Below, in pieces: positions 6,261 through 64,000 of a stretch of 64,000 nt of DNA. The stretch comes from Aphanomyces cochlioides (taxonomy: Eukaryota > Oomycota > Saprolegniomycetes > Saprolegniales > Verrucalvaceae). The translations under genes were made by a program, and so were the position numbers. The DNA is taken from contig JAHQRK010000001.1 of NCBI GenBank assembly GCA_019828595.1, forward strand, positions 2,542,001-2,606,000, given 5' to 3'. A model generated the notes under the pieces. The model saw only the letters and a list, made by a program, of their open reading frames with translations. It was not told where the DNA came from and did not search any database. The first letter of the stretch is position 1. Every line of letters starts with the position of its first letter.

Positions 6261-6299
6261 GTGCTTCTAGTTACGAGGTACACCATCCCAATGCACTTA

Positions 6300-7006: not shown

Positions 7007-7099
7007 TTCTGTTGCGATGGATTATGTCGGTAGAAAGACGTACGATGACAGTTTCATCTCGGAAGGAATTATTCCCGACGAAGGCATTCGGACGTCGCT

Positions 7100-30695: not shown

Positions 30696-30994
30696 ATCTC
30701 ACGTTTTCATTAACACAAGTCTCTTTTCTACCTCAGCAAAGTCCCCAGCATCAACAATCAGCCTTCACTTTTGCGAAAAAGACTTCTTATTGTCGTTCCT
30801 TGGTTTCCTGTGGAATACATGACGCTTGCGAGATCTAAATCATCCCTCGGTCTGGAGTCTAAGTGATTCTTTTTGTTCTCCACTGCAAAGTGTTGCCGTG
30901 TTTAAGTAGGTTGATGATCATGGATTGTGAAGATATTTCTTAGACGATTAATAAGACACAAAGCCTACAATGCACTGCGAGGTCCAGGAGCGAT

Positions 30995-34683: not shown

Positions 34684-36468
34684 CTACTCTGTCCCAAATT
34701 ATTGTGTGATTTTCAGGGAATTTGCCTTCAAAAATCGATTATTATGTTTTACAGTGTATGGAATGAACCAATCGAAAGCCGAGTAGAGCCACTTTGCCAC
34801 CTTGCAATTGGGCGAATCAAATAGCTCGTGGAATCCAACCATTTCTGTGGACAAAAATTAAAATTCACTAATAAAAATAAAGCACCGAACTTGAATATTG
34901 TATAGAAAATTTAAAAAATACATAATATTTGAGAGGAAATGGAACTGACTAGACCTGTCAAACATAATTACCCAACATCTTGCGTATGGCCAGCAAACTT
35001 TCATTTTGCAATGCGCGGCAAGGACGTGACGCCAACAGTGAAGTTGGTCATCTTGCTGGACCTCGCTGACAAGTCGTCCGACGGCAAGCTCAAGCATGGC
35101 GCCATCAAACAAGTGGCCCAACGGCACTCTGTCAGTGCTAGTCTAGTTGCATCACTCTGGAAGTCCCACTGCTCCAAAGTCTTGCTGGCCGTTGCCAGGC
35201 CAAATCTGAATCACGCTGCTTTGCTCAACGAACTGCAACCGAAACGCAATGAAAAGTGCGGGCGCAAGCCTCGTCAAGCCCACGAAGTTCAAACGCTTGT
35301 GTCCGACCTTGAGTTCGAAAAAACAGAGACATACCGATGTGCTTCGTACAACACCTGCATCCCAAAATCATCACTACATCGTTACATGAGCCAAGGCATT
35401 CTTAAGAACTCGTCGAATTCAATCAAACCACGCCTCACAGAAGAGCACAAGAAAAATAGGGTTGAATTTTGTTTAAAACACTTAATTCAATCTTATGATT
35501 CTAACTCTGATGTCTTGGCTTTCTCGTTTCCAAGTTTTCAAGACACAATTCACATCGACGAGAAGATTTTTAAAGTCGACAAGATCAAGCGATCCTTTGT
35601 TTTGGCTCCATGGGAAAATCCACCTCCAAGATCGGCGCAGAATAAGCGCTTCATTGGGCAATTGATGTTTCTTTGTGATGTCGCGCGGCCACGTTGGGAT
35701 GCTCACCGTAACTGTTGGTTTGATGGAAAGTTGGGGATTTGGCCTTTTGCCGAGGTCATTCCAGCTCGACGATCGTCAGCTAATCGTGTTGCTGGTACAC
35801 CTGAACTTTCTCCTCTGTCAGTTACTACTCCTGTTTTCAGGAAATTTTTGGAGGAACTTGTGCGACCTGCGATTGAAGAGAAGTGGCCTCGTGATGGTGT
35901 TCGTCATGTGTACCTTCAGTGCGACAACGCTTCCACGCATCCGCGAGCTGGCCATTGGTTCACCACGTCAAGTTTGACAGTTGAAATTGTTTGCCAGCCG
36001 GCTCAGTCACCAGATCTAAATGTACTAGATCTAGGTTACTTCAACGCAATTCAGTCGCTTCAGCAAAAGAAACGAACGAAGACACTAGAAGATCTTGTGC
36101 ATGCTGTACATGAATCATTTCTAGAGTTAAGTCGTGAGACTCTCGATAACATATTTTATACTTGGTGTGCATGCATGGAGCAGGTGATGCTCCATGCTGG
36201 TGATAACCAATACAAGATCCCCCATACAAATAAAAGCCAACTTAGACGACATGGACATGGCTTGCCCAGCTCTTATGAATGTTCTCAAGAAGCGGCAACG
36301 ACGGCTGCGCTCGTTCTTCTCAAATAGCACCTTGATTTAAGGCAATTCACTTTTATTTCGAATATATTTCTTCCAATCAGATTGTATAATTTAATATCTA
36401 CCAATGATATTACTTTCGAATTAGGGATAGGAATAAGCCAAACCACACAATAAAATGGGACAGAGTAG
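34684..36468 (+). mobile_element. Plant-type mariner-like element nested in the Tc1 element
   Basis: A 1785-bp element with terminal inverted repeats. Left: CTACTCTGTCCCAAATTATT; the reversed right end: CTACTCTGTCCCATTTTATT. Including the TA on each side, 27 of the first 30 bases match. The CTxxxTCTGTCCCA start resembles plant mariner and Stowaway ends. TA flanks both sides. It holds one long open transposase frame. Insertion interrupts the Tc1 transposase, so it is the younger element. Confidence 0.88.
34939..36327 (+). CDS. Mariner-like (plant MLE-type) DDD transposase
   Basis: An uninterrupted frame of 462 residues. The N-terminal 130 residues carry a helix-turn-helix region (KLVILLDLADKS, AIKQVAQRHSVSASLVASLW). 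The catalytic domain shows IHIDEKIF (first Asp), FIGQLMFLCDVARPR, FDGKLGIWPFAEVIPARR, VYLQCDNASTH (second Asp) and PAQSPDLNVLDLGYFNAIQS (third Asp). The C-terminus keeps KTLEDLVHAVHESF and YKIPH. These blocks match plant mariner-like transposases closely. The gap between the second and third Asp is 29 residues, against 39 in plant DD39D elements. It is the only apparently intact transposase in the window and may be active. Confidence 0.88.
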   Translation: MELTRPVKHNYPTSCVWPANFHFAMRGKDVTPTVKLVILLDLADKSSDGKLKHGAIKQVAQRHSVSASLVASLWKSHCSKVLLAVARPNLNHAALLNELQPKRNEKCGRKPRQAHEVQTLVSDLEFEKTETYRCASYNTCIPKSSLHRYMSQGILKNSSNSIKPRLTEEHKKNRVEFCLKHLIQSYDSNSDVLAFSFPSFQDTIHIDEKIFKVDKIKRSFVLAPWENPPPRSAQNKRFIGQLMFLCDVARPRWDAHRNCWFDGKLGIWPFAEVIPARRSSANRVAGTPELSPLSVTTPVFRKFLEELVRPAIEEKWPRDGVRHVYLQCDNASTHPRAGHWFTTSSLTVEIVCQPAQSPDLNVLDLGYFNAIQSLQQKKRTKTLEDLVHAVHESFLELSRETLDNIFYTWCACMEQVMLHAGDNQYKIPHTNKSQLRRHGHGLPSSYECSQEAATTAALVLLK

Positions 36469-42470: not shown

Positions 42471-43253
42471 AGCTAGTGTTCCATCTATAAACTACAATAC
42501 ATGAGTCATTCAATGTTTTTCCATCGTTATCGCTTACCTCTTGATTGCTGCCCATGTTGTTCATCTCCGAAAATGCAATTGTGAGTTGAGATGTAATCCA
42601 CCAATCAGTAGACCAACAGAAAAATGATTGGACAAAATACTGCAGTTGTGTGTGCTCTCAGCAAATTCCGATAACAAGTCATGTAATGAGATCAGATGGC
42701 TGTGCTGACTCCTGCTCAAAAAATATAGCTATTTTAAAAATTAGTTCAATAATTATTTAGTCCGGCTATTACTTCGATAAAGTAAATTAAATAGAATAGT
42801 AAACTTATTTTGATTAAGTTAGCTATTTAATCTTGACAACACTTGATAAAGTAAATTTTGAATGTAATTAAGCGAGGGGGACAGACAAGATGACAACAGG
42901 ACAACTTCCCGACAAGCACCACCCAAATCTTCACCCTGACGCAGTCATGAGACTGCGAACACTTGACACGCTAACGTTAGATCACACTCGACACGCCAAA
43001 TCTAGCGTGCACGCTATCCGCAGAGCAAGCAGTAGAATACGGATACAAAGAAAGAATGAACGACTTTTGGGATGAGTGGACCTCCTTCGCGCATGAAGAC
43101 GACGACGTCGAAGTGTCTGTCGCGATTGCTGAGCTCAATATGCTGAGAAGTGGTGACCAAAATAAGCAACGTGGAGGGTCCAGAAGCGGCAGAAGCGCGA
43201 ACATTTTGCGCTGCCGCGGTGTCTACGCCGTCCAGCTTGAAGTTCCCTTGTGG
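42471..43253. other. Left flank of the tandem array
   Basis: A/T-rich to about 42870, then G+C-rich. It contains a repeat copy (GGACAACTTCCCGACAA at 42899, AAATCTTCACCCTGACGCAG at 42925, hairpin CGCAGTC..GACTGCG at 42939-42956). A plus-strand acidic frame from about 43020 to 43140 (AEQAVEYGYKERMNDFWDEW) looks protein-like but has no recognised family. It may be an exon of an unrelated or truncated gene joined to the array by rearrangement. Confidence 0.4.
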
Positions 43254-43343
43254 AACACGTTTATCCGGAATGCTGATCAAGAAGGTGGCTCTCCAAGATA
43301 TTCCTTGGGGTACAAGTCGAAGTTGTTCAATTCATTACTCGAG

Positions 43344-44854
43344 TTATCTAATAAGAAGATTCACCACTTGCACGTCCATGGGTACGAGCGGACTGCGGAG
43401 TGGCTCCTTCGAGCGCGTTTGCATCGTTGGATGCTTGGTCGATTCCAAGACGGGACGAGCTTCCCCTTGGACACTGGATCGCGCGTGGGTTCGACCTTGG
43501 ACATGCGTCGTCCAAAACTGGGCAACCACTGCCATACCGCCACTGTCGTCGTGAACAACACAGCCAAGAGCTGCACAACCAACAGCATGTGAAAGTCCAC
43601 CACGTTGGGCGTGACTGGATTGACGGCGGCAGCAGGGCGAGGACCGACCACCTTGGGCGGGTCGCGCTTCACACCAGCAGGGGTCTTGGATTGAAATTTC
43701 CGCTGCAGAGCCAAGCCGATGCCAGTGGTCGCATACCCATCCGCCATCAACACCGCACGAATGCGCGGCGCAGGCATATACACAAACTCCTTCACACGTT
43801 CCGGCCTGTTCGTCAGACGTCAGTACATCATGACACCAACGCAGCACAAACGTACCACGTATCGTACAGACTCGAAAAGACCTGTCGAGCTTCGACACGG
43901 ACCAGCAAGAAATTGTCGTGGAGCGCTTCACGCACGAACTCCTTCAACAGCGAATACTGTGGCTCCAACTCTTCCTTCGTGCATGTCTCGACAGTGATGC
44001 CAAGCAGCTTCACGACAAGATGGCGCTTCCATCCTAAGACCACGGGTGAGAGACGCAAACACAGCCACTCTACCTCCTTCGGTACGATGATTCCGGGTTG
44101 CACGCGCTGTTTTGAAATACCCATAGAGCGTCTCGACACTCAGAAGAGTAGTCGCGGCCAACGCTTCGACACAATACGTGCTCGCCATGCTGATCGCTGC
44201 GTCATCGTCGGCCGACTTGCGACGCACACAAGCAGCGTCCAAGAGTGGCACAAGCAACACGTCCGCAAACGGTGCAAACGCTGCACCCAACGTATTGGCA
44301 AACGAAGCCACCACGCGACACGTGACTTGCACTACCGTCGCGTCCAAGCTCGACAGCAACTTGGATTTCACGCTTGCCTAGTCAGGAATAAGATGTGTGT
44401 GTGTCGACAATCCATACCGCGAGAGGTAGCATGTGGTCCACGACCACGTCCTTCGACTCCATTTTGGCGCGTTTGAGGGAGCTCCTCAACTTCTTCAACG
44501 CGCTTGTCATGGCGTACGCGCCACTGTATCCGTCGAGGGTGTCTCGGCAGGCGGCAATCTACACTTCGTGAGACCCACCGAGAGGACAGACGACCAACGT
44601 ACCTTAGAAAACAGCGTGTTCATCGTAGGGAGGTCGAATTCGAAAATGACCGCGTGCGTTGAAATGGAATTTCCGAATTCTCCCATGCGACGGAGGAGGA
44701 ACCACAACGCCTGAAAGCGACACCGCCGACGGACATAGTAAAAGGTTGCCATGTGTATCATCGACTGCAGTGCTATGTATATGTCGACACTGATGTCGAT
44801 CATACACATGGGGGCCACCTTGTCAGCACCCAACAGAACCAGCAGGGACCACAC
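43344..44854 (-). CDS. CLASP N-terminal (HEAT/TOG) domain gene segment, array copy 1
   Basis: Spliced minus-strand gene segment with four short introns: 44559-44602, 44378-44417, 44034-44073 and 43806-43855. Exons in order give LLRRMGEFGNS..NTLFSK; IAACRDTLDGYSGAYAMTSA..LPLA; ASVKSKLLSSLDATVVQVTC, RVVASFANTLGAAFAPFADV, LLVPLLDAACV; GWKRHLVVKLLGITVETC, LLKEFVREALHDNFLLVRVE, ARQVFSSLYDTW; and PERVKEFVYMPAPRIRAVLM followed by a basic, Pro-rich linker. The order of HEAT helices, the ARxxFxxxxxxWPER pattern and the linker match the CLASP_N domain of microtubule-stabilising CLASP/MAST proteins. The true first exon is uncertain: the frame can be followed to an ATG at 44854, but its first 45 residues look unconserved. 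The 3' end is also uncertain (stops at 43344, 43348 and 43361 in the three frames). Copy 1 is the array's left end. Confidence 0.65.
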
Positions 44855-45143
44855 AAGTCATTCCTATCGTCGTCGTCTGCTTCATCCATGTCATATCTAC
44901 TCCCACCTGGTCTGAGTTGCATTCTGTCTTGAGACGTTTCTCGTCATTGGAGCCAACGGAGAGGCTCCATCAGCGGGGAGGATCGACGCAAGTTGGCGCC
45001 TTTCTTGCGCGTTTCCAATCTTTGGGCAATCAGGTGGTTGTCCGGAAAGATTGAACACGTTTATCCGGAATGCTGATCAAGAAGGTGGCTCTCCAAGATA
45101 TTCCTTGGGGTACAAGTCGAAGTTGTTCAATTCATTACTCGAG

Positions 45144-46654
45144 TTATCTAATAAGAAGATTCACCACTTGCACGTCCATGGGTACGAGCGGACTGCGGAG
45201 TGGCTCCTTCGAGCGCGTTTGCATCGTTGGATGCTTGGTCGATTCCAAGACGGGACGAGCTTCCCCTTGGACACTGGATCGCGCGTGGGTTCGACCTTGG
45301 ACATGCGTCGTCCAAAACTGGGCAACCACTGCCATACCGCCACTGTCGTCGTGAACAACACAGCCAAGAGCTGCACAACCAACAGCATGTGAAAGTCCAC
45401 CACGTTGGGCGTGACTGGATTGACGGCGGCAGCAGGGCGAGGACCGACCACCTTGGGCGGGTCGCGCTTCACACCAGCAGGGGTCTTGGATTGAAATTTC
45501 CGCTGCAGAGCCAAGCCGATGCCAGTGGTCGCATACCCATCCGCCATCAACACCGCACGAATGCGCGGCGCAGGCATATACACAAACTCCTTCACACGTT
45601 CCGGCCTGTTCGTCAGACGTCAGTACATCATGACACCAACGCAGCACAAACGTACCACGTATCGTACAGACTCGAAAAGACCTGTCGAGCTTCGACACGG
45701 ACCAGCAAGAAATTGTCGTGGAGCGCTTCACGCACGAACTCCTTCAACAGCGAATACTGTGGCTCCAACTCTTCCTTCGTGCATGTCTCGACAGTGATGC
45801 CAAGCAGCTTCACGACAAGATGGCGCTTCCATCCTAAGACCACGGGTGAGAGACGCAAACACAGCCACTCTACCTCCTTCGGTACGATGATTCCGGGTTG
45901 CACGCGCTGTTTTGAAATACCCATAGAGCGTCTCGACACTCAGAAGAGTAGTCGCGGCCAACGCTTCGACACAATACGTGCTCGCCATGCTGATCGCTGC
46001 GTCATCGTCGGCCGACTTGCGACGCACACAAGCAGCGTCCAAGAGTGGCACAAGCAACACGTCCGCAAACGGTGCAAACGCTGCACCCAACGTATTGGCA
46101 AACGAAGCCACCACGCGACACGTGACTTGCACTACCGTCGCGTCCAAGCTCGACAGCAACTTGGATTTCACGCTTGCCTAGTCAGGAATAAGATGTGTGT
46201 GTGTCGACAATCCATACCGCGAGAGGTAGCATGTGGTCCACGACCACGTCCTTCGACTCCATTTTGGCGCGTTTGAGGGAGCTCCTCAACTTCTTCAACG
46301 CGCTTGTCATGGCGTACGCGCCACTGTATCCGTCGAGGGTGTCTCGGCAGGCGGCAATCTACCCTTCGTGAGACCCACCGAGAGGACAGACGACCAACGT
46401 ACCTTAGAAAACAGCGTGTTCATCGTAGGGAGGTCGAATTCGAAAATGACCGCGTGCGTTGAAATGGAATTTCCGAATTCTCCCATGCGACGGAGGAGGA
46501 ACCACAACGCCTGAAAGCGACACCGCCGACGGACATAGTAAAAGGTTGCCATGTGTATCATCGACTGCAGTGCTATGTATATGTCGACACTGATGTCGAT
46601 CATACACATGGGGGCCACCTTGTCAGCACCCAACAGAACCAGCAGGGACCACAC
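45144..46654 (-). CDS. CLASP-domain gene segment, array copy 2
   Basis: Same gene plan as copy 1, in unit 45054-46853. All four introns and frames are preserved. It carries CTACCCTTC (base C at 46364) near the first intron acceptor, shared only with copy 3, and the TTGAACACG junction on its left. Confidence 0.6.
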
Positions 46655-46943
46655 AAGTCATTCCTATCGTCGTCGTCTGCTTCATCCATGTCATATCTAC
46701 TCCCACCTGGTCTGAGTTGCATTCTGTCTTGAGACGTTTCTCGTCATTGGAGCCAACGGAGAGGCTCCATCAGCGGGGAGGATCGACGCAAGTTGGCGCC
46801 TTTCTTGCGCGTTTCCAATCTTTGGGCAATCAGGTGGTTGTCCGGAAAGATAGAACACGTTTATCCGGAATGCTGATCAAGAAGGTGGCTCTCCAAGATA
46901 TTCCTTGGGGTACAAGTCGAAGTTGTTCAATTCATTACTCGAG

Positions 46944-48452
46944 TTATCTAATAAGAAGATTCACCACTTGCACGTCCATGGGTACGAGCGGACTGCGGAG
47001 TGGCTCCTTCGAGCGCGTTTGCATCGTTGGATGCTTGGTCGATTCCAAGACGGGACGAGCTTCCCCTTGGACACTGGATCGCGCGTGGGTTCGACCTTGG
47101 ACATGCGTCGTCCAAAACTGGGCAACCACTGCCATACCGCCACTGTCGTCGTGAACAACACAGCCAAGAGCTGCACAACCAACAGCATGTGAAAGTCCAC
47201 CACGTTGGGCGTGACTGGATTGACGGCGGCAGCAGGGCGAGGACCGACCACCTTGGGCGGGTCGCGCTTCACACCAGCAGGGGTCTTGGATTGAAATTTC
47301 CGCTGCAGAGCCAAGCCGATGCCAGTGGTCATACCCATCCGCCATCAACACCGCACGAATGCGCGGCGCAGGCATATACACAAACTCCTTCACACGTTCC
47401 GGCCTGTTCGTCAGACGTCAGTACATCATGACACCAACGCAGCACAAACGTACCACGTATCGTACAGACTCGAAAAGACCTGTCGAGCTTCGACACGGAC
47501 CAGCAAGAAATTGTCGTGGAGCGCTTCACGCACGAACTCCTTCAACAGCGAATACTGTGGCTCCAACTCTTCCTTCGTGCATGTCTCGACAGTGATGCCA
47601 AGCAGCTTCACGACAAGATGGCGCTTCCATCCTAAGACCACGGGTGAGAGACGCAAACACAGCCACTCTACCTCCTTCGGTACGATGATTCCGGGTTGCA
47701 CGCGCTGTTTTGAAATACCCATAGAGCGTCTCGACACTCAGAAGAGTAGTCGCGGCCAACGCTTCGACACAATACGTGCTCGCCATGCTGATCGCTGCGT
47801 CATCGTCGGCCGACTTGCGACGCACACAAGCAGCGTCCAAGAGTGGCACAAGCAACACGTCCGCAAACGGTGCAAACGCTGCACCCAACGTATTGGCAAA
47901 CGAAGCCACCACGCGACACGTGACTTGCACTACCGTCGCGTCCAAGCTCGACAGCAACTTGGATTTCACGCTTGCCTAGTCAGGAATAAGATGTGTGTGT
48001 GTCGACAATCCATACCGCGAGAGGTAGCATGTGGTCCACGACCACGTCCTTCGACTCCATTTTGGCGCGTTTGAGGGAGCTCCTCAACTTCTTCAACGCG
48101 CTTGTCATGGCGTACGCGCCACTGTATCCGTCGAGGGTGTCTCGGCAGGCGGCAATCTACCCTTCGTGAGACCCACCGAGAGGACAGACGACCAACGTAC
48201 CTTAGAAAACAGCGTGTTCATCGTAGGGAGGTCGAATTCGAAAATGACCGCGTGCGTTGAAATGGAATTTCCGAATTCTCCCATGCGACGGAGGAGGAAC
48301 CACAACGCCTGAAAGCGACACCGCCGACGGACATAGTAAAAGGTTGCCATGTGTATCATCGACTGCAGTGCTATGTATATGTCGACACTGATGTCGATCA
48401 TACACATGGGGGCCACCTTGTCAGCACCCAACAGAACCAGCAGGGACCACAC
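46944..48452 (-). pseudogene. CLASP-domain gene segment, array copy 3, frameshifted
   Basis: Unit 46854-48651. A 2-bp deletion at about 47330 (GTGGTCATACC where others read GTGGTCGCATACC) shifts the frame in the exon after PERVKEF, at ADGYATTG. The rest matches copy 1. It shares the CTACCCTTC variant with copy 2. Confidence 0.6.
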
Positions 48453-48741
48453 AAGTCATTCCTATCGTCGTCGTCTGCTTCATCCATGTCATATCTACTC
48501 CCACCTGGTCTGAGTTGCATTCTGTCTTGAGACGTTTCTCGTCATTGGAGCCAACGGAGAGGCTCCATCAGCGGGGAGGATCGACGCAAGTTGGCGCCTT
48601 TCTTGCGCGTTTCCAATCTTTGGGCAATCAGGTGGTTGTCCGGAAAGATAGAACACGTTTATCCGGAATGCTGATCAAGAAGGTGGCTCTCCAAGATATT
48701 CCTTGGGGTACAAGTCGAAGTTGTTCAATTCATTACTCGAG

Positions 48742-50251
48742 TTATCTAATAAGAAGATTCACCACTTGCACGTCCATGGGTACGAGCGGACTGCGGAGTG
48801 GCTCCTTCGAGCGCGTTTGCATCGTTGGATGCTTGGTCGATTCCAAGACGGGACGAGCTTCCCCTTGGACACTGGATCGCGCGTGGGTTCGACCTTGGAC
48901 ATGCGTCGTCCAAAACTGGGCAACCACTGCCATACCGCCACTGTCGTCGTGAACAACACAGCCAAGAGCTGCACAACCAACAGCATGTGAAAGTCCACCA
49001 CGTTGGGCGTGACTGGATTGACGGCGGCAGCAGGGCGAGGACCGACCACCTTGGGCGGGTCGCGCTTCACACCAGCAGGGGTCTTGGATTGAAATTTCCG
49101 CTGCAGAGCCAAGCCGATGCCAGTGGTCGCATACCCATCCGCCATCAACACCGCACGAATGCGCGGCGCAGGCATATACACAAACTCCTTCACACGTTCC
49201 GGCCTGTTCGTCAGACGTCAGTACATCATGACACCAACGCAGCACAAACGTACCACGTATCGTACAGACTCGAAAAGACCTGTCGAGCTTCGACACGGAC
49301 CAGCAAGAAATTGTCGTGGAGCGCTTACGCACGAACTCCTTCAACAGCGAATACTGTGGCTCCAACTCTTCCTTCGTGCATGTCTCGACAGTGATGCCAA
49401 GCAGCTTCACGACAAGATGGCGCTTCCATCCTAAGACCACGGGTGAGAGACGCAAACACAGCCACTCTACCTCCTTCGGTACGATGATTCCGGGTTGCAC
49501 GCGCTGTTTTGAAATACCCATAGAGCGTCTCGACACTCAGAAGAGTAGTCGCGGCCAACGCTTCGACACAATACGTGCTCGCCATGCTGATCGCTGCGTC
49601 ATCGTCGGCCGACTTGCGACGCACACAAGCAGCGTCCAAGAGTGGCACAAGCAACACGTCCGCAAACGGTGCAAACGCTGCACCCAACGTATTGGCAAAC
49701 GAAGCCACCACGCGACACGTGACTTGCACTACCGTCGCGTCCAAGCTCGACAGCAACTTGGATTTCACGCTTGCCTAGTCAGGAATAAGATGTGTGTGTG
49801 TCGACAATCCATACCGCGAGAGGTAGCATGTGGTCCACGACCACGTCCTTCGACTCCATTTTGGCGCGTTTGAGGGAGCTCCTCAACTTCTTCAACGCGC
49901 TTGTCATGGCGTACGCGCCACTGTATCCGTCGAGGGTGTCTCGGCAGGCGGCAATCTACACTTCGTGAGACCCACCGAGAGGACAGACGACCAACGTACC
50001 TTAGAAAACAGCGTGTTCATCGTAGGGAGGTCGAATTCGAAAATGACCGCGTGCGTTGAAATGGAATTTCCGAATTCTCCCATGCGACGGAGGAGGAACC
50101 ACAACGCCTGAAAGCGACACCGCCGACGGACATAGTAAAAGGTTGCCATGTGTATCATCGACTGCAGTGCTATGTATATGTCGACACTGATGTCGATCAT
50201 ACACATGGGGGCCACCTTGTCAGCACCCAACAGAACCAGCAGGGACCACAC
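48742..50251 (-). pseudogene. CLASP-domain gene segment, array copy 4, frameshifted
   Basis: Unit 48652-50450. A 1-bp deletion at about 49326 (GCGCTTACGC for GCGCTTCACGC) breaks the exon at KEFVREALHD. The rest matches copy 1. Confidence 0.6.
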
Positions 50252-50540
50252 AAGTCATTCCTATCGTCGTCGTCTGCTTCATCCATGTCATATCTACTCC
50301 CACCTGGTCTGAGTTGCATTCTGTCTTGAGACGTTTCTCGTCATTGGAGCCAACGGAGAGGCTCCATCAGCGGGGAGGATCGACGCAAGTTGGCGCCTTT
50401 CTTGCGCGTTTCCAATCTTTGGGCAATCAGGTGGTTGTCCGGAAAGATAGAACACGTTTATCCGGAATGCTGATCAAGAAGGTGGCTCTCCAAGATATTC
50501 CTTGGGGTACAAGTCGAAGTTGTTCAATTCATTACTCGAG

Positions 50541-52051
50541 TTATCTAATAAGAAGATTCACCACTTGCACGTCCATGGGTACGAGCGGACTGCGGAGTGG
50601 CTCCTTCGAGCGCGTTTGCATCGTTGGATGCTTGGTCGATTCCAAGACGGGACGAGCTTCCCCTTGGACACTGGATCGCGCGTGGGTTCGACCTTGGACA
50701 TGCGTCGTCCAAAACTGGGCAACCACTGCCATACCGCCACTGTCGTCGTGAACAACACAGCCAAGAGCTGCACAACCAACAGCATGTGAAAGTCCACCAC
50801 GTTGGGCGTGACTGGATTGACGGCGGCAGCAGGGCGAGGACCGACCACCTTGGGCGGGTCGCGCTTCACACCAGCAGGGGTCTTGGATTGAAATTTCCGC
50901 TGCAGAGCCAAGCCGATGCCAGTGGTCGCATACCCATCCGCCATCAACACCGCACGAATGCGCGGCGCAGGCATATACACAAACTCCTTCACACGTTCCG
51001 GCCTGTTCGTCAGACGTCAGTACATCATGACACCAACGCAGCACAAACGTACCACGTATCGTACAGACTCGAAAAGACCTGTCGAGCTTCGACACGGACC
51101 AGCAAGAAATTGTCGTGGAGCGCTTCACGCACGAACTCCTTCAACAGCGAATACTGTGGCTCCAACTCTTCCTTCGTGCATGTCTCGACAGTGATGCCAA
51201 GCAGCTTCACGACAAGATGGCGCTTCCATCCTAAGACCACGGGTGAGAGACGCAAACACAGCCACTCTACCTCCTTCGGTACGATGATTCCGGGTTGCAC
51301 GCGCTGTTTTGAAATACCCATAGAGCGTCTCGACACTCAGAAGAGTAGTCGCGGCCAACGCTTCGACACAATACGTGCTCGCCATGCTGATCGCTGCGTC
51401 ATCGTCGGCCGACTTGCGACGCACACAAGCAGCGTCCAAGAGTGGCACAAGCAACACGTCCGCAAACGGTGCAAACGCTGCACCCAACGTATTGGCAAAC
51501 GAAGCCACCACGCGACACGTGACTTGCACTACCGTCGCGTCCAAGCTCGACAGCAACTTGGATTTCACGCTTGCCTAGTCAGGAATAAGATGTGTGTGTG
51601 TCGACAATCCATACCGCGAGAGGTAGCATGTGGTCCACGACCACGTCCTTCGACTCCATTTTGGCGCGTTTGAGGGAGCTCCTCAACTTCTTCAACGCGC
51701 TTGTCATGGCGTACGCGCCACTGTATCCGTCGAGGGTGTCTCGGCAGGCGGCAATCTACACTTCGTGAGACCCACCGAGAGGACAGACGACCAACGTACC
51801 TTAGAAAACAGCGTGTTCATCGTAGGGAGGTCGAATTCGAAAATGACCGCGTGCGTTGAAATGGAATTTCCGAATTCTCCCATGCGACGGAGGAGGAACC
51901 ACAACGCCTGAAAGCGACACCGCCGACGGACATAGTAAAAGGTTGCCATGTGTATCATCGACTGCAGTGCTATGTATATGTCGACACTGATGTCGATCAT
52001 ACACATGGGGGCCACCTTGTCAGCACCCAACAGAACCAGCAGGGACCACAC
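50541..52051 (-). CDS. CLASP-domain gene segment, array copy 5
   Basis: Unit 50451-52250, same plan and frames as copy 1, no indel seen. Confidence 0.6.
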
Positions 52052-52340
52052 AAGTCATTCCTATCGTCGTCGTCTGCTTCATCCATGTCATATCTACTCC
52101 CACCTGGTCTGAGTTGCATTCTGTCTTGAGACGTTTCTCGTCATTGGAGCCAACGGAGAGGCTCCATCAGCGGGGAGGATCGACGCAAGTTGGCGCCTTT
52201 CTTGCGCGTTTCCAATCTTTGGGCAATCAGGTGGTTGTCCGGAAAGATTGAACACGTTTATCCGGAATGCTGATCAAGAAGGTGGCTCTCCAAGATATTC
52301 CTTGGGGTACAAGTCGAAGTTGTTCAATTCATTACTCGAG

Positions 52341-53851
52341 TTATCTAATAAGAAGATTCACCACTTGCACGTCCATGGGTACGAGCGGACTGCGGAGTGG
52401 CTCCTTCGAGCGCGTTTGCATCGTTGGATGCTTGGTCGATTCCAAGACGGGACGAGCTTCCCCTTGGACACTGGATCGCGCGTGGGTTCGACCTTGGACA
52501 TGCGTCGTCCAAAACTGGGCAACCACTGCCATACCGCCACTGTCGTCGTGAACAACACAGCCAAGAGCTGCACAACCAACAGCATGTGAAAGTCCACCAC
52601 GTTGGGCGTGACTGGATTGACGGCGGCAGCAGGGCGAGGACCGACCACCTTGGGCGGGTCGCGCTTCACACCAGCAGGGGTCTTGGATTGAAATTTCCGC
52701 TGCAGAGCCAAGCCGATGCCAGTGGTCGCATACCCATCCGCCATCAACACCGCACGAATGCGCGGCGCAGGCATATACACAAACTCCTTCACACGTTCCG
52801 GCCTGTTCGTCAGACGTCAGTACATCATGACACCAACGCAGCACAAACGTACCACGTATCGTACAGACTCGAAAAGACCTGTCGAGCTTCGACACGGACC
52901 AGCAAGAAATTGTCGTGGAGCGCTTCACGCACGAACTCCTTCAACAGCGAATACTGTGGCTCCAACTCTTCCTTCGTGCATGTCTCGACAGTGATGCCAA
53001 GCAGCTTCACGACAAGATGGCGCTTCCATCCTAAGACCACGGGTGAGAGACGCAAACACAGCCACTCTACCTCCTTCGGTACGATGATTCCGGGTTGCAC
53101 GCGCTGTTTTGAAATACCCATAGAGCGTCTCGACACTCAGAAGAGTAGTCGCGGCCAACGCTTCGACACAATACGTGCTCGCCATGCTGATCGCTGCGTC
53201 ATCGTCGGCCGACTTGCGACGCACACAAGCAGCGTCCAAGAGTGGCACAAGCAACACGTCCGCAAACGGTGCAAACGCTGCACCCAACGTATTGGCAAAC
53301 GAAGCCACCACGCGACACGTGACTTGCACTACCGTCGCGTCCAAGCTCGACAGCAACTTGGATTTCACGCTTGCCTAGTCAGGAATAAGATGTGTGTGTG
53401 TCGACAATCCATACCGCGAGAGGTAGCATGTGGTCCACGACCACGTCCTTCGACTCCATTTTGGCGCGTTTGAGGGAGCTCCTCAACTTCTTCAACGCGC
53501 TTGTCATGGCGTACGCGCCACTGTATCCGTCGAGGGTGTCTCGGCAGGCGGCAATCTACACTTCGTGAGACCCACCGAGAGGACAGACGACCAACGTACC
53601 TTAGAAAACAGCGTGTTCATCGTAGGGAGGTCGAATTCGAAAATGACCGCGTGCGTTGAAATGGAATTTCCGAATTCTCCCATGCGACGGAGGAGGAACC
53701 ACAACGCCTGAAAGCGACACCGCCGACGGACATAGTAAAAGGTTGCCATGTGTATCATCGACTGCAGTGCTATGTATATGTCGACACTGATGTCGATCAT
53801 ACACATGGGGGCCACCTTGTCAGCACCCAACAGAACCAGCAGGGACCACAC
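52341..53851 (-). CDS. CLASP-domain gene segment, array copy 6
   Basis: Unit 52251-54050, intact relative to copy 1. Its left junction carries the TTGAACACG variant. Confidence 0.6.
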
Positions 53852-54140
53852 AAGTCATTCCTATCGTCGTCGTCTGCTTCATCCATGTCATATCTACTCC
53901 CACCTGGTCTGAGTTGCATTCTGTCTTGAGACGTTTCTCGTCATTGGAGCCAACGGAGAGGCTCCATCAGCGGGGAGGATCGACGCAAGTTGGCGCCTTT
54001 CTTGCGCGTTTCCAATCTTTGGGCAATCAGGTGGTTGTCCGGAAAGATTGAACACGTTTATCCGGAATGCTGATCAAGAAGGTGGCTCTCCAAGATATTC
54101 CTTGGGGTACAAGTCGAAGTTGTTCAATTCATTACTCGAG

Positions 54141-55651
54141 TTATCTAATAAGAAGATTCACCACTTGCACGTCCATGGGTACGAGCGGACTGCGGAGTGG
54201 CTCCTTCGAGCGCGTTTGCATCGTTGGATGCTTGGTCGATTCCAAGACGGGACGAGCTTCCCCTTGGACACTGGATCGCGCGTGGGTTCGACCTTGGACA
54301 TGCGTCGTCCAAAACTGGGCAACCACTGCCATACCGCCACTGTCGTCGTGAACAACACAGCCAAGAGCTGCACAACCAACAGCATGTGAAAGTCCACCAC
54401 GTTGGGCGTGACTGGATTGACGGCGGCAGCAGGGCGAGGACCGACCACCTTGGGCGGGTCGCGCTTCACACCAGCAGGGGTCTTGGATTGAAATTTCCGC
54501 TGCAGAGCCAAGCCGATGCCAGTGGTCGCATACCCATCCGCCATCAACACCGCACGAATGCGCGGCGCAGGCATATACACAAACTCCTTCACACGTTCCG
54601 GCCTGTTCGTCAGACGTCAGTACATCATGACACCAACGCAGCACAAACGTACCACGTATCGTACAGACTCGAAAAGACCTGTCGAGCTTCGACACGGACC
54701 AGCAAGAAATTGTCGTGGAGCGCTTCACGCACGAACTCCTTCAACAGCGAATACTGTGGCTCCAACTCTTCCTTCGTGCATGTCTCGACAGTGATGCCAA
54801 GCAGCTTCACGACAAGATGGCGCTTCCATCCTAAGACCACGGGTGAGAGACGCAAACACAGCCACTCTACCTCCTTCGGTACGATGATTCCGGGTTGCAC
54901 GCGCTGTTTTGAAATACCCATAGAGCGTCTCGACACTCAGAAGAGTAGTCGCGGCCAACGCTTCGACACAATACGTGCTCGCCATGCTGATCGCTGCGTC
55001 ATCGTCGGCCGACTTGCGACGCACACAAGCAGCGTCCAAGAGTGGCACAAGCAACACGTCCGCAAACGGTGCAAACGCTGCACCCAACGTATTGGCAAAC
55101 GAAGCCACCACGCGACACGTGACTTGCACTACCGTCGCGTCCAAGCTCGACAGCAACTTGGATTTCACGCTTGCCTAGTCAGGAATAAGATGTGTGTGTG
55201 TCGACAATCCATACCGCGAGAGGTAGCATGTGGTCCACGACCACGTCCTTCGACTCCATTTTGGCGCGTTTGAGGGAGCTCCTCAACTTCTTCAACGCGC
55301 TTGTCATGGCGTACGCGCCACTGTATCCGTCGAGGGTGTCTCGGCAGGCGGCAATCTACACTTCGTGAGACCCACCGAGAGGACAGACGACCAACGTACC
55401 TTAGAAAACAGCGTGTTCATCGTAGGGAGGTCGAATTCGAAAATGACCGCGTGCGTTGAAATGGAATTTCCGAATTCTCCCATGCGACGGAGGAGGAACC
55501 ACAACGCCTGAAAGCGACACCGCCGACGGACATAGTAAAAGGTTGCCATGTGTATCATCGACTGCAGTGCTATGTATATGTCGACACTGATGTCGATCAT
55601 ACACATGGGGGCCACCTTGTCAGCACCCAACAGAACCAGCAGGGACCACAC
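54141..55651 (-). CDS. CLASP-domain gene segment, array copy 7
   Basis: Unit 54051-55850, intact relative to copy 1. Its left junction carries the TTGAACACG variant, as in copies 2 and 6. Confidence 0.6.
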
Positions 55652-55940
55652 AAGTCATTCCTATCGTCGTCGTCTGCTTCATCCATGTCATATCTACTCC
55701 CACCTGGTCTGAGTTGCATTCTGTCTTGAGACGTTTCTCGTCATTGGAGCCAACGGAGAGGCTCCATCAGCGGGGAGGATCGACGCAAGTTGGCGCCTTT
55801 CTTGCGCGTTTCCAATCTTTGGGCAATCAGGTGGTTGTCCGGAAAGATAGAACACGTTTATCCGGAATGCTGATCAAGAAGGTGGCTCTCCAAGATATTC
55901 CTTGGGGTACAAGTCGAAGTTGTTCAATTCATTACTCGAG

Positions 55941-57451
55941 TTATCTAATAAGAAGATTCACCACTTGCACGTCCATGGGTACGAGCGGACTGCGGAGTGG
56001 CTCCTTCGAGCGCGTTTGCATCGTTGGATGCTTGGTCGATTCCAAGACGGGACGAGCTTCCCCTTGGACACTGGATCGCGCGTGGGTTCGACCTTGGACA
56101 TGCGTCGTCCAAAACTGGGCAACCACTGCCATACCGCCACTGTCGTCGTGAACAACACAGCCAAGAGCTGCACAACCAACAGCATGTGAAAGTCCACCAC
56201 GTTGGGCGTGACTGGATTGACGGCGGCAGCAGGGCGAGGACCGACCACCTTGGGCGGGTCGCGCTTCACACCAGCAGGGGTCTTGGATTGAAATTTCCGC
56301 TGCAGAGCCAAGCCGATGCCAGTGGTCGCATACCCATCCGCCATCAACACCGCACGAATGCGCGGCGCAGGCATATACACAAACTCCTTCACACGTTCCG
56401 GCCTGTTCGTCAGACGTCAGTACATCATGACACCAACGCAGCACAAACGTACCACGTATCGTACAGACTCGAAAAGACCTGTCGAGCTTCGACACGGACC
56501 AGCAAGAAATTGTCGTGGAGCGCTTCACGCACGAACTCCTTCAACAGCGAATACTGTGGCTCCAACTCTTCCTTCGTGCATGTCTCGACAGTGATGCCAA
56601 GCAGCTTCACGACAAGATGGCGCTTCCATCCTAAGACCACGGGTGAGAGACGCAAACACAGCCACTCTACCTCCTTCGGTACGATGATTCCGGGTTGCAC
56701 GCGCTGTTTTGAAATACCCATAGAGCGTCTCGACACTCAGAAGAGTAGTCGCGGCCAACGCTTCGACACAATACGTGCTCGCCATGCTGATCGCTGCGTC
56801 ATCGTCGGCCGACTTGCGACGCACACAAGCAGCGTCCAAGAGTGGCACAAGCAACACGTCCGCAAACGGTGCAAACGCTGCACCCAACGTATTGGCAAAC
56901 GAAGCCACCACGCGACACGTGACTTGCACTACCGTCGCGTCCAAGCTCGACAGCAACTTGGATTTCACGCTTGCCTAGTCAGGAATAAGATGTGTGTGTG
57001 TCGACAATCCATACCGCGAGAGGTAGCATGTGGTCCACGACCACGTCCTTCGACTCCATTTTGGCGCGTTTGAGGGAGCTCCTCAACTTCTTCAACGCGC
57101 TTGTCATGGCGTACGCGCCACTGTATCCGTCGAGGGTGTCTCGGCAGGCGGCAATCTACACTTCGTGAGACCCACCGAGAGGACAGACGACCAACGTACC
57201 TTAGAAAACAGCGTGTTCATCGTAGGGAGGTCGAATTCGAAAATGACCGCGTGCGTTGAAATGGAATTTCCGAATTCTCCCATGCGACGGAGGAGGAACC
57301 ACAACGCCTGAAAGCGACACCGCCGACGGACATAGTAAAAGGTTGCCATGTGTATCATCGACTGCAGTGCTATGTATATGTCGACACTGATGTCGATCAT
57401 ACACATGGGGGCCACCTTGTCAGCACCCAACAGAACCAGCAGGGACCACAC
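55941..57451 (-). CDS. CLASP-domain gene segment, array copy 8
   Basis: Unit 55851-57650, intact relative to copy 1; TAGAACACG junction on the left. Confidence 0.6.
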
Positions 57452-57740
57452 AAGTCATTCCTATCGTCGTCGTCTGCTTCATCCATGTCATATCTACTCC
57501 CACCTGGTCTGAGTTGCATTCTGTCTTGAGACGTTTCTCGTCATTGGAGCCAACGGAGAGGCTCCATCAGCGGGGAGGATCGACGCAAGTTGGCGCCTTT
57601 CTTGCGCGTTTCCAATCTTTGGGCAATCAGGTGGTTGTCCGGAAAGATAGAACACGTTTATCCGGAATGCTGATCAAGAAGGTGGCTCTCCAAGATATTC
57701 CTTGGGGTACAAGTCGAAGTTGTTCAATTCATTACTCGAG

Positions 57741-59253
57741 TTATCTAATAAGAAGATTCACCACTTGCACGTCCATGGGTACGAGCGGACTGCGGAGTGG
57801 CTCCTTCGAGCGCGTTTGCATCGTTGGATGCTTGGTCGATTCCAAGACGGGACGAGCTTCCCCTTGGACACTGGATCGCGCGTGGGTTCGACCTTGGACA
57901 TGCGTCGTCCAAAACTGGGCAACCACTGCCATACCGCCACTGTCGTCGTGAACAACACAGCCAAGAGCTGCACAACCAACAGCATGTGAAAGTCCACCAC
58001 GTTGGGCGTGACTGGATTGACGGCGGCAGCAGGGCGAGGACCGACCACCTTGGGCGGGTCGCGCTTCACACCAGCAGGGGTCTTGGATTGAAATTTCCGC
58101 TGCAGAGCCAAGCCGATGCCAGTGGTCGCATACCCATCCGCCATCAACACCGCACGAATGCGCGGCGCAGGCATATACACAAACTCCTTCACACGTTCCG
58201 GCCTGTTCGTCAGACGTCAGTACATCATGACACCAACGCAGCACAAACGTACCACGTATCGTACAGACTCGAAAAGACCTGTCGAGCTTCGACACGGACC
58301 AGCAAGAAATTGTCGTGGAGCGCTTCACACGCACGAACTCCTTCAACAGCGAATACTGTGGCTCCAACTCTTCCTTCGTGCATGTCTCGACAGTGATGCC
58401 AAGCAGCTTCACGACAAGATGGCGCTTCCATCCTAAGACCACGGGTGAGAGACGCAAACACAGCCACTCTACCTCCTTCGGTACGATGATTCCGGGTTGC
58501 ACGCGCTGTTTTGAAATACCCATAGAGCGTCTCGACACTCAGAAGAGTAGTCGCGGCCAACGCTTCGACACAATACGTGCTCGCCATGCTGATCGCTGCG
58601 TCATCGTCGGCCGACTTGCGACGCACACAAGCAGCGTCCAAGAGTGGCACAAGCAACACGTCCGCAAACGGTGCAAACGCTGCACCCAACGTATTGGCAA
58701 ACGAAGCCACCACGCGACACGTGACTTGCACTACCGTCGCGTCCAAGCTCGACAGCAACTTGGATTTCACGCTTGCCTAGTCAGGAATAAGATGTGTGTG
58801 TGTCGACAATCCATACCGCGAGAGGTAGCATGTGGTCCACGACCACGTCCTTCGACTCCATTTTGGCGCGTTTGAGGGAGCTCCTCAACTTCTTCAACGC
58901 GCTTGTCATGGCGTACGCGCCACTGTATCCGTCGAGGGTGTCTCGGCAGGCGGCAATCTACACTTCGTGAGACCCACCGAGAGGACAGACGACCAACGTA
59001 CCTTAGAAAACAGCGTGTTCATCGTAGGGAGGTCGAATTCGAAAATGACCGCGTGCGTTGAAATGGAATTTCCGAATTCTCCCATGCGACGGAGGAGGAA
59101 CCACAACGCCTGAAAGCGACACCGCCGACGGACATAGTAAAAGGTTGCCATGTGTATCATCGACTGCAGTGCTATGTATATGTCGACACTGATGTCGATC
59201 ATACACATGGGGGCCACCTTGTCAGCACCCAACAGAACCAGCAGGGACCACAC
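57741..59253 (-). pseudogene. CLASP-domain gene segment, array copy 9, frameshifted
   Basis: Unit 57651-59452. A 2-bp insertion at about 58326 (GCGCTTCACACGCACG) breaks the exon at KEFVREALHD, at the same CA-rich spot as the deletion in copy 4. The rest matches copy 1. Confidence 0.6.
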
Positions 59254-59542
59254 AAGTCATTCCTATCGTCGTCGTCTGCTTCATCCATGTCATATCTACT
59301 CCCACCTGGTCTGAGTTGCATTCTGTCTTGAGACGTTTCTCGTCATTGGAGCCAACGGAGAGGCTCCATCAGCGGGGAGGATCGACGCAAGTTGGCGCCT
59401 TTCTTGCGCGTTTCCAATCTTTGGGCAATCAGGTGGTTGTCCGGAAAGATAGAACACGTTTATCCGGAATGCTGATCAAGAAGGTGGCTCTCCAAGATAT
59501 TCCTTGGGGTACAAGTCGAAGTTGTTCAATTCATTACTCGAG

Positions 59543-61053
59543 TTATCTAATAAGAAGATTCACCACTTGCACGTCCATGGGTACGAGCGGACTGCGGAGT
59601 GGCTCCTTCGAGCGCGTTTGCATCGTTGGATGCTTGGTCGATTCCAAGACGGGACGAGCTTCCCCTTGGACACTGGATCGCGCGTGGGTTCGACCTTGGA
59701 CATGCGTCGTCCAAAACTGGGCAACCACTGCCATACCGCCACTGTCGTCGTGAACAACACAGCCAAGAGCTGCACAACCAACAGCATGTGAAAGTCCACC
59801 ACGTTGGGCGTGACTGGATTGACGGCGGCAGCAGGGCGAGGACCGACCACCTTGGGCGGGTCGCGCTTCACACCAGCAGGGGTCTTGGATTGAAATTTCC
59901 GCTGCAGAGCCAAGCCGATGCCAGTGGTCGCATACCCATCCGCCATCAACACCGCACGAATGCGCGGCGCAGGCATATACACAAACTCCTTCACACGTTC
60001 CGGCCTGTTCGTCAGACGTCAGTACATCATGACACCAACGCAGCACAAACGTACCACGTATCGTACAGACTCGAAAAGACCTGTCGAGCTTCGACACGGA
60101 CCAGCAAGAAATTGTCGTGGAGCGCTTCACGCACGAACTCCTTCAACAGCGAATACTGTGGCTCCAACTCTTCCTTCGTGCATGTCTCGACAGTGATGCC
60201 AAGCAGCTTCACGACAAGATGGCGCTTCCATCCTAAGACCACGGGTGAGAGACGCAAACACAGCCACTCTACCTCCTTCGGTACGATGATTCCGGGTTGC
60301 ACGCGCTGTTTTGAAATACCCATAGAGCGTCTCGACACTCAGAAGAGTAGTCGCGGCCAACGCTTCGACACAATACGTGCTCGCCATGCTGATCGCTGCG
60401 TCATCGTCGGCCGACTTGCGACGCACACAAGCAGCGTCCAAGAGTGGCACAAGCAACACGTCCGCAAACGGTGCAAACGCTGCACCCAACGTATTGGCAA
60501 ACGAAGCCACCACGCGACACGTGACTTGCACTACCGTCGCGTCCAAGCTCGACAGCAACTTGGATTTCACGCTTGCCTAGTCAGGAATAAGATGTGTGTG
60601 TGTCGACAATCCATACCGCGAGAGGTAGCATGTGGTCCACGACCACGTCCTTCGACTCCATTTTGGCGCGTTTGAGGGAGCTCCTCAACTTCTTCAACGC
60701 GCTTGTCATGGCGTACGCGCCACTGTATCCGTCGAGGGTGTCTCGGCAGGCGGCAATCTACACTTCGTGAGACCCACCGAGAGGACAGACGACCAACGTA
60801 CCTTAGAAAACAGCGTGTTCATCGTAGGGAGGTCGAATTCGAAAATGACCGCGTGCGTTGAAATGGAATTTCCGAATTCTCCCATGCGACGGAGGAGGAA
60901 CCACAACGCCTGAAAGCGACACCGCCGACGGACATAGTAAAAGGTTGCCATGTGTATCATCGACTGCAGTGCTATGTATATGTCGACACTGATGTCGATC
61001 ATACACATGGGGGCCACCTTGTCAGCACCCAACAGAACCAGCAGGGACCACAC
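59543..61053 (-). CDS. CLASP-domain gene segment, array copy 10
   Basis: Unit 59453-61252, intact relative to copy 1; TAGAACACG junction on the left. Confidence 0.6.
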
Positions 61054-61342
61054 AAGTCATTCCTATCGTCGTCGTCTGCTTCATCCATGTCATATCTACT
61101 CCCACCTGGTCTGAGTTGCATTCTGTCTTGAGACGTTTCTCGTCATTGGAGCCAACGGAGAGGCTCCATCAGCGGGGAGGATCGACGCAAGTTGGCGCCT
61201 TTCTTGCGCGTTTCCAATCTTTGGGCAATCAGGTGGTTGTCCGGAAAGATAGAACACGTTTATCCGGAATGCTGATCAAGAAGGTGGCTCTCCAAGATAT
61301 TCCTTGGGGTACAAGTCGAAGTTGTTCAATTCATTACTCGAG

Positions 61343-62853
61343 TTATCTAATAAGAAGATTCACCACTTGCACGTCCATGGGTACGAGCGGACTGCGGAGT
61401 GGCTCCTTCGAGCGCGTTTGCATCGTTGGATGCTTGGTCGATTCCAAGACGGGACGAGCTTCCCCTTGGACACTGGATCGCGCGTGGGTTCGACCTTGGA
61501 CATGCGTCGTCCAAAACTGGGCAACCACTGCCATACCGCCACTGTCGTCGTGAACAACACAGCCAAGAGCTGCACAACCAACAGCATGTGAAAGTCCACC
61601 ACGTTGGGCGTGACTGGATTGACGGCGGCAGCAGGGCGAGGACCGACCACCTTGGGCGGGTCGCGCTTCACACCAGCAGGGGTCTTGGATTGAAATTTCC
61701 GCTGCAGAGCCAAGCCGATGCCAGTGGTCGCATACCCATCCGCCATCAACACCGCACGAATGCGCGGCGCAGGCATATACACAAACTCCTTCACACGTTC
61801 CGGCCTGTTCGTCAGACGTCAGTACATCATGACACCAACGCAGCACAAACGTACCACGTATCGTACAGACTCGAAAAGACCTGTCGAGCTTCGACACGGA
61901 CCAGCAAGAAATTGTCGTGGAGCGCTTCACGCACGAACTCCTTCAACAGCGAATACTGTGGCTCCAACTCTTCCTTCGTGCATGTCTCGACAGTGATGCC
62001 AAGCAGCTTCACGACAAGATGGCGCTTCCATCCTAAGACCACGGGTGAGAGACGCAAACACAGCCACTCTACCTCCTTCGGTACGATGATTCCGGGTTGC
62101 ACGCGCTGTTTTGAAATACCCATAGAGCGTCTCGACACTCAGAAGAGTAGTCGCGGCCAACGCTTCGACACAATACGTGCTCGCCATGCTGATCGCTGCG
62201 TCATCGTCGGCCGACTTGCGACGCACACAAGCAGCGTCCAAGAGTGGCACAAGCAACACGTCCGCAAACGGTGCAAACGCTGCACCCAACGTATTGGCAA
62301 ACGAAGCCACCACGCGACACGTGACTTGCACTACCGTCGCGTCCAAGCTCGACAGCAACTTGGATTTCACGCTTGCCTAGTCAGGAATAAGATGTGTGTG
62401 TGTCGACAATCCATACCGCGAGAGGTAGCATGTGGTCCACGACCACGTCCTTCGACTCCATTTTGGCGCGTTTGAGGGAGCTCCTCAACTTCTTCAACGC
62501 GCTTGTCATGGCGTACGCGCCACTGTATCCGTCGAGGGTGTCTCGGCAGGCGGCAATCTACACTTCGTGAGACCCACCGAGAGGACAGACGACCAACGTA
62601 CCTTAGAAAACAGCGTGTTCATCGTAGGGAGGTCGAATTCGAAAATGACCGCGTGCGTTGAAATGGAATTTCCGAATTCTCCCATGCGACGGAGGAGGAA
62701 CCACAACGCCTGAAAGCGACACCGCCGACGGACATAGTAAAAGGTTGCCATGTGTATCATCGACTGCAGTGCTATGTATATGTCGACACTGATGTCGATC
62801 ATACACATGGGGGCCACCTTGTCAGCACCCAACAGAACCAGCAGGGACCACAC
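61343..62853 (-). CDS. CLASP-domain gene segment, array copy 11
   Basis: Unit 61253-63052, intact relative to copy 1; TAGAACACG junction on the left. Confidence 0.6.
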
Positions 62854-63142
62854 AAGTCATTCCTATCGTCGTCGTCTGCTTCATCCATGTCATATCTACT
62901 CCCACCTGGTCTGAGTTGCATTCTGTCTTGAGACGTTTCTCGTCATTGGAGCCAACGGAGAGGCTCCATCAGCGGGGAGGATCGACGCAAGTTGGCGCCT
63001 TTCTTGCGCGTTTCCAATCTTTGGGCAATCAGGTGGTTGTCCGGAAAGATAGAACACGTTTATCCGGAATGCTGATCAAGAAGGTGGCTCTCCAAGATAT
63101 TCCTTGGGGTACAAGTCGAAGTTGTTCAATTCATTACTCGAG

Positions 63143-64000
63143 TTATCTAATAAGAAGATTCACCACTTGCACGTCCATGGGTACGAGCGGACTGCGGAGT
63201 GGCTCCTTCGAGCGCGTTTGCATCGTTGGATGCTTGGTCGATTCCAAGACGGGACGAGCTTCCCCTTGGACACTGGATCGCGCGTGGGTTCGACCTTGGA
63301 CATGCGTCGTCCAAAACTGGGCAACCACTGCCATACCGCCACTGTCGTCGTGAACAACACAGCCAAGAGCTGCACAACCAACAGCATGTGAAAGTCCACC
63401 ACGTTGGGCGTGACTGGATTGACGGCGGCAGCAGGGCGAGGACCGACCACCTTGGGCGGGTCGCGCTTCACACCAGCAGGGGTCTTGGATTGAAATTTCC
63501 GCTGCAGAGCCAAGCCGATGCCAGTGGTCGCATACCCATCCGCCATCAACACCGCACGAATGCGCGGCGCAGGCATATACACAAACTCCTTCACACGTTC
63601 CGGCCTGTTCGTCAGACGTCAGTACATCATGACACCAACGCAGCACAAACGTACCACGTATCGTACAGACTCGAAAAGACCTGTCGAGCTTCGACACGGA
63701 CCAGCAAGAAATTGTCGTGGAGCGCTTCACGCACGAACTCCTTCAACAGCGAATACTGTGGCTCCAACTCTTCCTTCGTGCATGTCTCGACAGTGATGCC
63801 AAGCAGCTTCACGACAAGATGGCGCTTCCATCCTAAGACCACGGGTGAGAGACGCAAACACAGCCACTCTACCTCCTTCGGTACGATGATTCCGGGTTGC
63901 ACGCGCTGTTTTGAAATACCCATAGAGCGTCTCGACACTCAGAAGAGTAGTCGCGGCCAACGCTTCGACACAATACGTGCTCGCCATGCTGATCGCTGCG
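63143..64000 (-). CDS. CLASP-domain gene segment, array copy 12, cut by window edge
   Basis: Unit starts at 63053; only the 3' half of the gene segment (from ISMASTYCVEALAATT onward) is inside the window. No indel is seen in the visible part. Confidence 0.6.

Follow-up and report, generated by a model that had tools for sequence, protein, structure and literature searches.

A tandem array of a short spliced TOG-domain gene in Aphanomyces cochlioides, a probable protein-coding macrosatellite

A stretch of 64,000 nucleotides from the oomycete Aphanomyces cochlioides (assembly GCA_019828595.1, contig JAHQRK010000001.1, here C1, positions 2,542,001 to 2,606,000; this whole stretch is called the window) ends in a tandem array of 1.8-kb units, each with a predicted spliced gene for a short protein with one TOG domain and a transmembrane helix. 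We regard this array as probably a protein-coding macrosatellite comparable to human TAF11-Like or to Stellate of the fly; unequal exchange together with gene conversion would maintain its uniformity. This reading is based on the array itself, a domain match, mostly open reading frames, purifying selection, a second array, a mosaic unit, and inverted and dispersed copies, all of which were observed. The tandem monomers are kilobase-scale and near-identical, and the frame is open and identical in 11 of the 14 complete copies.

Structure of the array and its predicted gene

BLAST with one unit as query against the window detected 11 copies that are complete or nearly so, plus a twelfth represented by 948 bp; the first begins at position 43254. 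Contig C1 was also read 60 kb beyond the window. The array runs past the window edge to C1:2610998 (68998 in extended window coordinates) and comprises 14 complete 1800-bp copies plus 546 bp (14.3 units, 25.7 kb), all with the coding strand on minus. Identity among units is 99.8–100%, and an anchor word recurs at a spacing of 1798–1802 bp. Three small indels and two variable single-base sites make up the whole variation across the 14 complete copies; some variants are private to one copy, others are common to neighbors (copies 2 and 3; copies 5 and 6). The array is missing from the list of Tandem Repeats Finder because the longest period of this program is 500 bp, and a DNA search skipping very common words listed neither this array nor the second one described below, while protein searches recovered both.

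An identical protein of 362 amino acids is predicted from 11 of the 14 complete copies, within the window from copies 1 (43254..45053), 2 (45054..46853; the reference unit for most searches), 5 (50451..52250), 6 (52251..54050), 7 (54051..55850), 8 (55851..57650), 10 (59453..61252) and 11 (61253..63052). The remaining three carry frameshifting indels of 1–2 bp: a small deletion alters the C-terminal frame of copy 3 (46854..48651), while the frame is lost after about 190 amino acids by a small deletion in copy 4 (48652..50450) and by a small insertion in copy 9 (57651..59452). Copy 12 (63053..64000) is truncated by the window edge and complete in the contig. Several dispersed copies start and stop near the place equivalent to the head-to-tail junction between copies (45030..45165). 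Short TTATCCGGA/TTGTCCGGA motifs recur next to this junction and in dispersed copies.

In silico splicing resulted in a gene of five exons and 362 codons with introns of 44, 40, 40, and 50 bp, all with GT..AG ends. In copy 1, exon 1 (44603..44623, minus strand, as for all exons) contributes seven codons including the inferred start codon, exon 2 (44418..44558) the start of the TOG domain, exons 3 (44074..44377) and 4 (43856..44033) further parts of it, and exon 5 (43361..43805) the domain end, a proline-rich linker, the transmembrane helix, a basic tail, and the stop codon. The GT..AG introns are retained in related copies; one intron end in the copy c1_3308 departs. Among eight unspliced open reading frames (ORFs) scanned, only one matched Pfam CLASP_N (PF12348), with 16.1 bits against a cutoff of 27, so the exons had to be joined. 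A first splice model reached 32.9 bits with one intron misplaced and was replaced by the five-exon model, for which the spliced 391-amino-acid product with upstream extension scored 37.3 bits (E 2.8e-9). The 362-amino-acid form also weakly matched the CLASP2 TOG chain (PDB 3woy; E 0.0016).

A membrane anchor is backed by a hydropathy score in the two arrays only. The predicted transmembrane helix spans residues 288–306 in the window array (array 1) and 293–311 in the second array (array 2), with a mean hydropathy of 2.2, while another hydrophobic stretch at residues 87–105 falls inside the TOG domain, where it probably forms a buried HEAT helix. With one TOG domain and a transmembrane helix near the C-terminus, the predicted product is most likely anchored in a membrane, its TOG domain facing the cytosol. 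By eye and without a hydropathy score, the TOG part of a paralog on contig C89 is followed by a proline-rich linker, a hydrophobic stretch, and an end resembling a coiled coil, and in a gene from a palindrome on C13 a hydrophobic stretch follows the TOG part; no C-terminal stretch above the hydropathy threshold was found in the paralog at C13:425k. A tryptophan near the start of the TOG domain, where such a residue belongs to the loop that contacts tubulin, is present in all four aligned paralogs (in one alignment column in three of them) and missing in all three sequences of the array lineage. Tubulin binding by the array protein may therefore be weak or changed, or may be lost in its ordinary form.

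CLASP proper combines several TOG domains in one protein. Here, a single domain match was obtained in a predicted product of 362–391 amino acids that fills the unit. The unit is a complete small predicted gene, neither a gene fragment nor CLASP itself; larger ORFs at C21:408238 and C2:1298108 were read as CLASP-like and XMAP215-like candidates, respectively. The original prediction, made from the letters of the window, had proposed at least 11.5 near-perfectly identical units over at least 20.7 kb, introns included, each encoding a spliced CLASP_N domain. The near-identity holds, the extent was understated, and the translated unit scores over the gathering cutoff of the profile once introns are removed. 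Its description as part of a cytoskeleton gene does not hold, as the unit contains TOG domain, linker, transmembrane helix, and tail.

Related copies and traces of selection

Of the protein searches for relatives of the unit, one gave 110 matches, all listed, and another is represented by the listed part of its 210 matches. Array 2 lies on the same contig, 330 kb from array 1, and is about 17% diverged. Within it, 19 direct exon-4 matches are spaced 1874–1877 bp, and one further match is inverted. On the right it ends at C1:2255754, and its left part was read from C1:2219301, which lies inside the inverted copy and short of the left edge. Among dispersed copies, one of 2120 bp at C1:2504302 (99.8%) and a fragment of 477 bp at C13:583103-583579 (99.6–99.8%) span the unit junction. 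Copies of about 75–85% identity are located at C1:1778k, 2211k, 2295k, and 3308k and at C7:632-635k, and short pieces of 94–97% identity at C7:625k and C1:3314k. The locus L054 holds an inverted pair of the unit, 99.2% identical over 3.8 kb. This pair and the one at C7:632-635k (L021/L022) are convergent, opposite in orientation to the divergent palindromic paralogs described below.

Comparison in 120-bp segments along the gene strand revealed that the unit of array 1 is a mosaic. Up to position 960 it is nearer to the C1:1778k copy (86–97%, vs. 75–88% to array 2), and from position 961 it is nearer to array 2 (87–98%, vs. 75–87% to the C1:1778k copy). In the simplest reading, the recombinant unit would have formed first and would then have been amplified into array 1.

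Nonsynonymous and synonymous divergence (dN and dS) were computed from the shared ATG, as the stretch upstream is out of frame in array 2. The copies c1_1778 (frameshifted, start codon lost) as well as c7_inv and c1_2211 (both partial) were omitted. Between the two arrays, dS was 0.255 and dN 0.067, giving a ratio of 0.26 (bootstrap 0.18–0.36), with 0.21 for the TOG part and 0.42 for the C-terminal part. For array 2, the ratio was 0.43 against c1_2295, 0.25 against c1_3308, and 0.46 against c7_632. Substitutions between the arrays were distributed over the three codon positions as 24, 25, and 56 in exons (p 7e-5) and as 40, 36, and 32 in noncoding sequence (p 0.65). An uneven count with third-position excess in exons was found in six of seven pairs at p<0.01, the exception being array 2 vs. 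c1_2295 (p 0.1), while noncoding counts were uneven in none of the seven (p 0.18 to 0.87). Low dN/dS together with third-position changes in exons only argues that the unit evolved as a coding gene.

Palindromic relatives and surroundings of the array

More distant members of the family occur as inverted pairs in divergent orientation, spaced about 2 kb, on C3, C4, and C34 and at two places on C13. These palindromes were traced by protein search, and DNA matches were also obtained for C4, C34, and C13. The arms at C13:578573-582684 are 99.85–99.9% identical over 2.0 kb, and in sampled 500-bp stretches arm-to-arm identity was 100% on C34, 100% on C3, and 99.8% at C13:625k. The palindromic loci that align with each other are 78–82% alike; the one on C3 is unalignable to the others. 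At the two ends of the C4 palindrome, stretches of 75 bp are exact mirror images. Gene conversion between arms would explain their identity. Outside the TOG family, a minimum length of 300 bp and a minimum identity of 85% were reached by two inverted pairs, one of them closely spaced, in 228.5 kb of context, which was chosen around the family and is no fair genome-wide control. A transposon with long inverted repeats was considered since the outer palindrome end seemed alike at three loci, and was rejected because the C4 palindrome continues into the sequence that also borders the right C13 arm, so that the shared end was produced by the choice of query.

The C13 palindrome belongs to a composite block (C13:578573-583579; L023:573-5579) consisting of the palindromic TOG gene pair, a stretch that is 90% like the flank on C4, and the array fragment of 477 bp. 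The outer flanks of this block recur at C13:643k, where one match covers 1026 bp with 100% identity and the opposite one 37 bp with 95%; seven unmatched bases lie between them, and no duplicated target was seen. C13:643k is likely the empty site of a composite insertion. The arrangement fits a composite piece inserted by end joining, or a deletion at C13:643k.

The left and right flanks of array 1 differ. On the left, the start of an ORF (window 43056-43253) is truncated at the array junction; its first 64 amino acids have relatives at eight other places in the genome, so the array abuts repeated sequence, and the ORF is perhaps a transposase gene. Immediately to the right, the end of a Ty1/copia-type polyprotein was recognized by eye, whose relatives occur on many contigs; the 117 matches listed do not concentrate at the arrays. 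Telomere runs were looked for and none were found. No support was obtained for a centromeric-array reading.

Further features were noted around the array and elsewhere. An inverted pair of 1508 bp, 99.4% identical, flanks array 1 (window 30951-32458 and C1:2624558-2626065, extended 82558-84065), and its window copy overlies an ORF for a prolyl oligopeptidase (Peptidase_S9). The window also contains a row of ORFs with Tubby-like (three ORFs) and RING-type domains (three ORFs, one under its cutoff) at 5082-15170 and, at 34939-36327, an ORF of 462 amino acids with weak sub-cutoff matches to DDE_3 and to a Tc3-type transposase helix-turn-helix. An Rfam scan of the window gave no match at the gathering threshold. 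At C34:6648-19984, near the contig start, seven equal-scoring matches to this copia-type piece from the right flank of array 1 are spaced 2197 bp and represent a tandem array of a retroelement piece. At C1:2292001-2293912 (L017:1-1912) and L015:685-1377, a tandem repeat with a period of 676 bp is 99.7% alike, with one inverted copy at 97% about 200 kb away.

Origin of the array and comparison with known systems

The unit could instead be a noncoding satellite that arose from a gene, in which case its similarity to CLASP_N would be a relic of the source without a role at the protein level. Frameshifts in three of the 14 complete copies and the broken state of some dispersed copies agree with this, as does the arraying of other kilobase-scale sequences (the retroelement piece at 2197-bp spacing, the 676-bp repeat), by which the genome appears to make arrays of whatever sequence is at hand. 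Selection could moreover have ended at the last expansion. We nevertheless consider such a satellite unlikely in view of dN/dS values well under 1 between the arrays and between several dispersed copies, the codon-position signal confined to exons, and the identical protein from 11 of 14 copies. It is improbable, too, that the TOG gene was the cargo of a mobile or extrachromosomal element, such as a 1.8-kb circle or a rolling-circle transposon, that made both the arrays and the dispersed copies. Several of the latter do start and stop near the head-to-tail junction, which the pieces at C1:2504302 and C13:583103-583579 span, and the C13 composite of palindrome and array fragment looks inserted, with C13:643k as its likely empty site. 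However, no transposase, terminal repeat, or target-site duplication was found at the dispersed copies or the C13 insertion read (few loci were readable), the likely empty site has the seven unmatched bases in place of the overlap expected from a duplication, the seemingly common palindrome end was a query effect, and the dispersed copies are few, many of them ragged fragments. The chance that the assembler inflated one or two units is very small: copies differing at only five places would suit it, whereas the unlike flanks, the private variants and those common to neighboring copies, and the existence of a second, diverged array speak against it.

Several observations weigh against the protein-coding macrosatellite that we prefer. 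Copies 3, 4, and 9 are frameshifted, the copy c1_2295 (C1:2295k) has an internal stop and c1_1778 (C1:1778k) is broken, and the C-terminal part is less constrained (dN/dS 0.42). The start codon is inferred, and the gene's 5′ end is uncertain because the frames of arrays 1 and 2 differ directly upstream of this codon. A cargo gene of a mobile element would show equal selection. Also, dN/dS is averaged since the loci parted, and over two histories in the mosaic array 1; it thus speaks for a coding past and leaves it unproven that today's array copies function.

For a protein-coding macrosatellite, we propose that recombination turned a unit tandem and that unequal sister-chromatid exchange and gene conversion would have expanded and homogenized each array on its own. 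The present unit would be a recombinant predating the last expansion, with a 5′ part like the C1:1778k copy and a 3′ part like array 2. The array would act by setting the dose of a single short TOG protein in the membrane. Through its anchor, the TOG domain of this protein, exposed to the cytosol, could link tubulin or the ends of microtubules to the membrane. Concerted evolution was rightly among the options of the original prediction; a satellite grown from a gene fragment, another option, is disfavored because the unit is a complete predicted gene with a record of purifying selection.

As a gene-carrying tandem array, the find is of a known kind; the gene in this state looks new. In our literature searches, which covered part of the literature, no description of a TOG domain combined with a membrane anchor was found. 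The array would extend the few known coding macrosatellites by a spliced, cytoskeleton-type gene. One gene family in one genome forms two tandem arrays and several palindromes, each uniform internally and diverged from the others, so that a direct comparison of how fast unequal exchange and gene conversion proceed could be made.

With CLASP and other TOG proteins, the predicted product shares one CLASP_N/TOG domain over the Pfam cutoff and the weak 3woy match; unlike in CLASP, a single TOG domain is followed by a transmembrane helix instead of further TOG domains, and the tryptophan of the paralogs is absent. The palindromic relatives resemble the gene-bearing palindromes of the human Y chromosome, for which arm-to-arm gene conversion is reported (PMC3723533): their arms are 99.8–100% identical in the stretches sampled, while the loci are 78–82% alike. 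Unlike on the Y chromosome, the arms are only about 2 kb long, and gene conversion is inferred here.

Drosophila Stellate genes, according to PMC7874207, contain an ORF with two introns, have intact ORFs with mainly synonymous differences, and form euchromatic and heterochromatic clusters that were amplified independently. As in Stellate/Su(Ste), a short spliced member of a conserved family is tandem here at two independently amplified loci, with intact frames and mainly synonymous differences (PMC7874207). The likeness is one of anatomy only; sex linkage, suppressor locus, small RNAs, and meiotic effect are on the side of Stellate. By analogy with multicopy Stellate and with the kinesin genes of maize Abnormal 10, membrane-anchored single-TOG genes might recur in self-homogenizing forms as agents of genetic conflict that bias their own transmission, which we rate as quite a long shot. 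The two arrays, the palindromic twins, and the composite insertion would be such forms, and an action on spindle or nuclear microtubules could be an example, an idea to which we give equally little weight. The maize Kindr kinesin genes are likewise tandem.

Human macrosatellites differ in that the unit described here, known from one genome sequence, holds a predicted gene for a TOG-transmembrane protein that is interrupted by four introns of 40–50 bp. RS447 and D4Z4 monomers contain an open frame, and the TAF11-Like array has a 594-bp open frame per monomer, with three monomers in inverted orientation at one edge and fragments close by (PMC3018141). The array of A. cochlioides resembles all three in its kilobase-scale head-to-tail monomers, each with an open frame, and array 2 resembles TAF11-Like also in its inverted monomer at the edge and the fragments in its neighborhood (PMC3018141).

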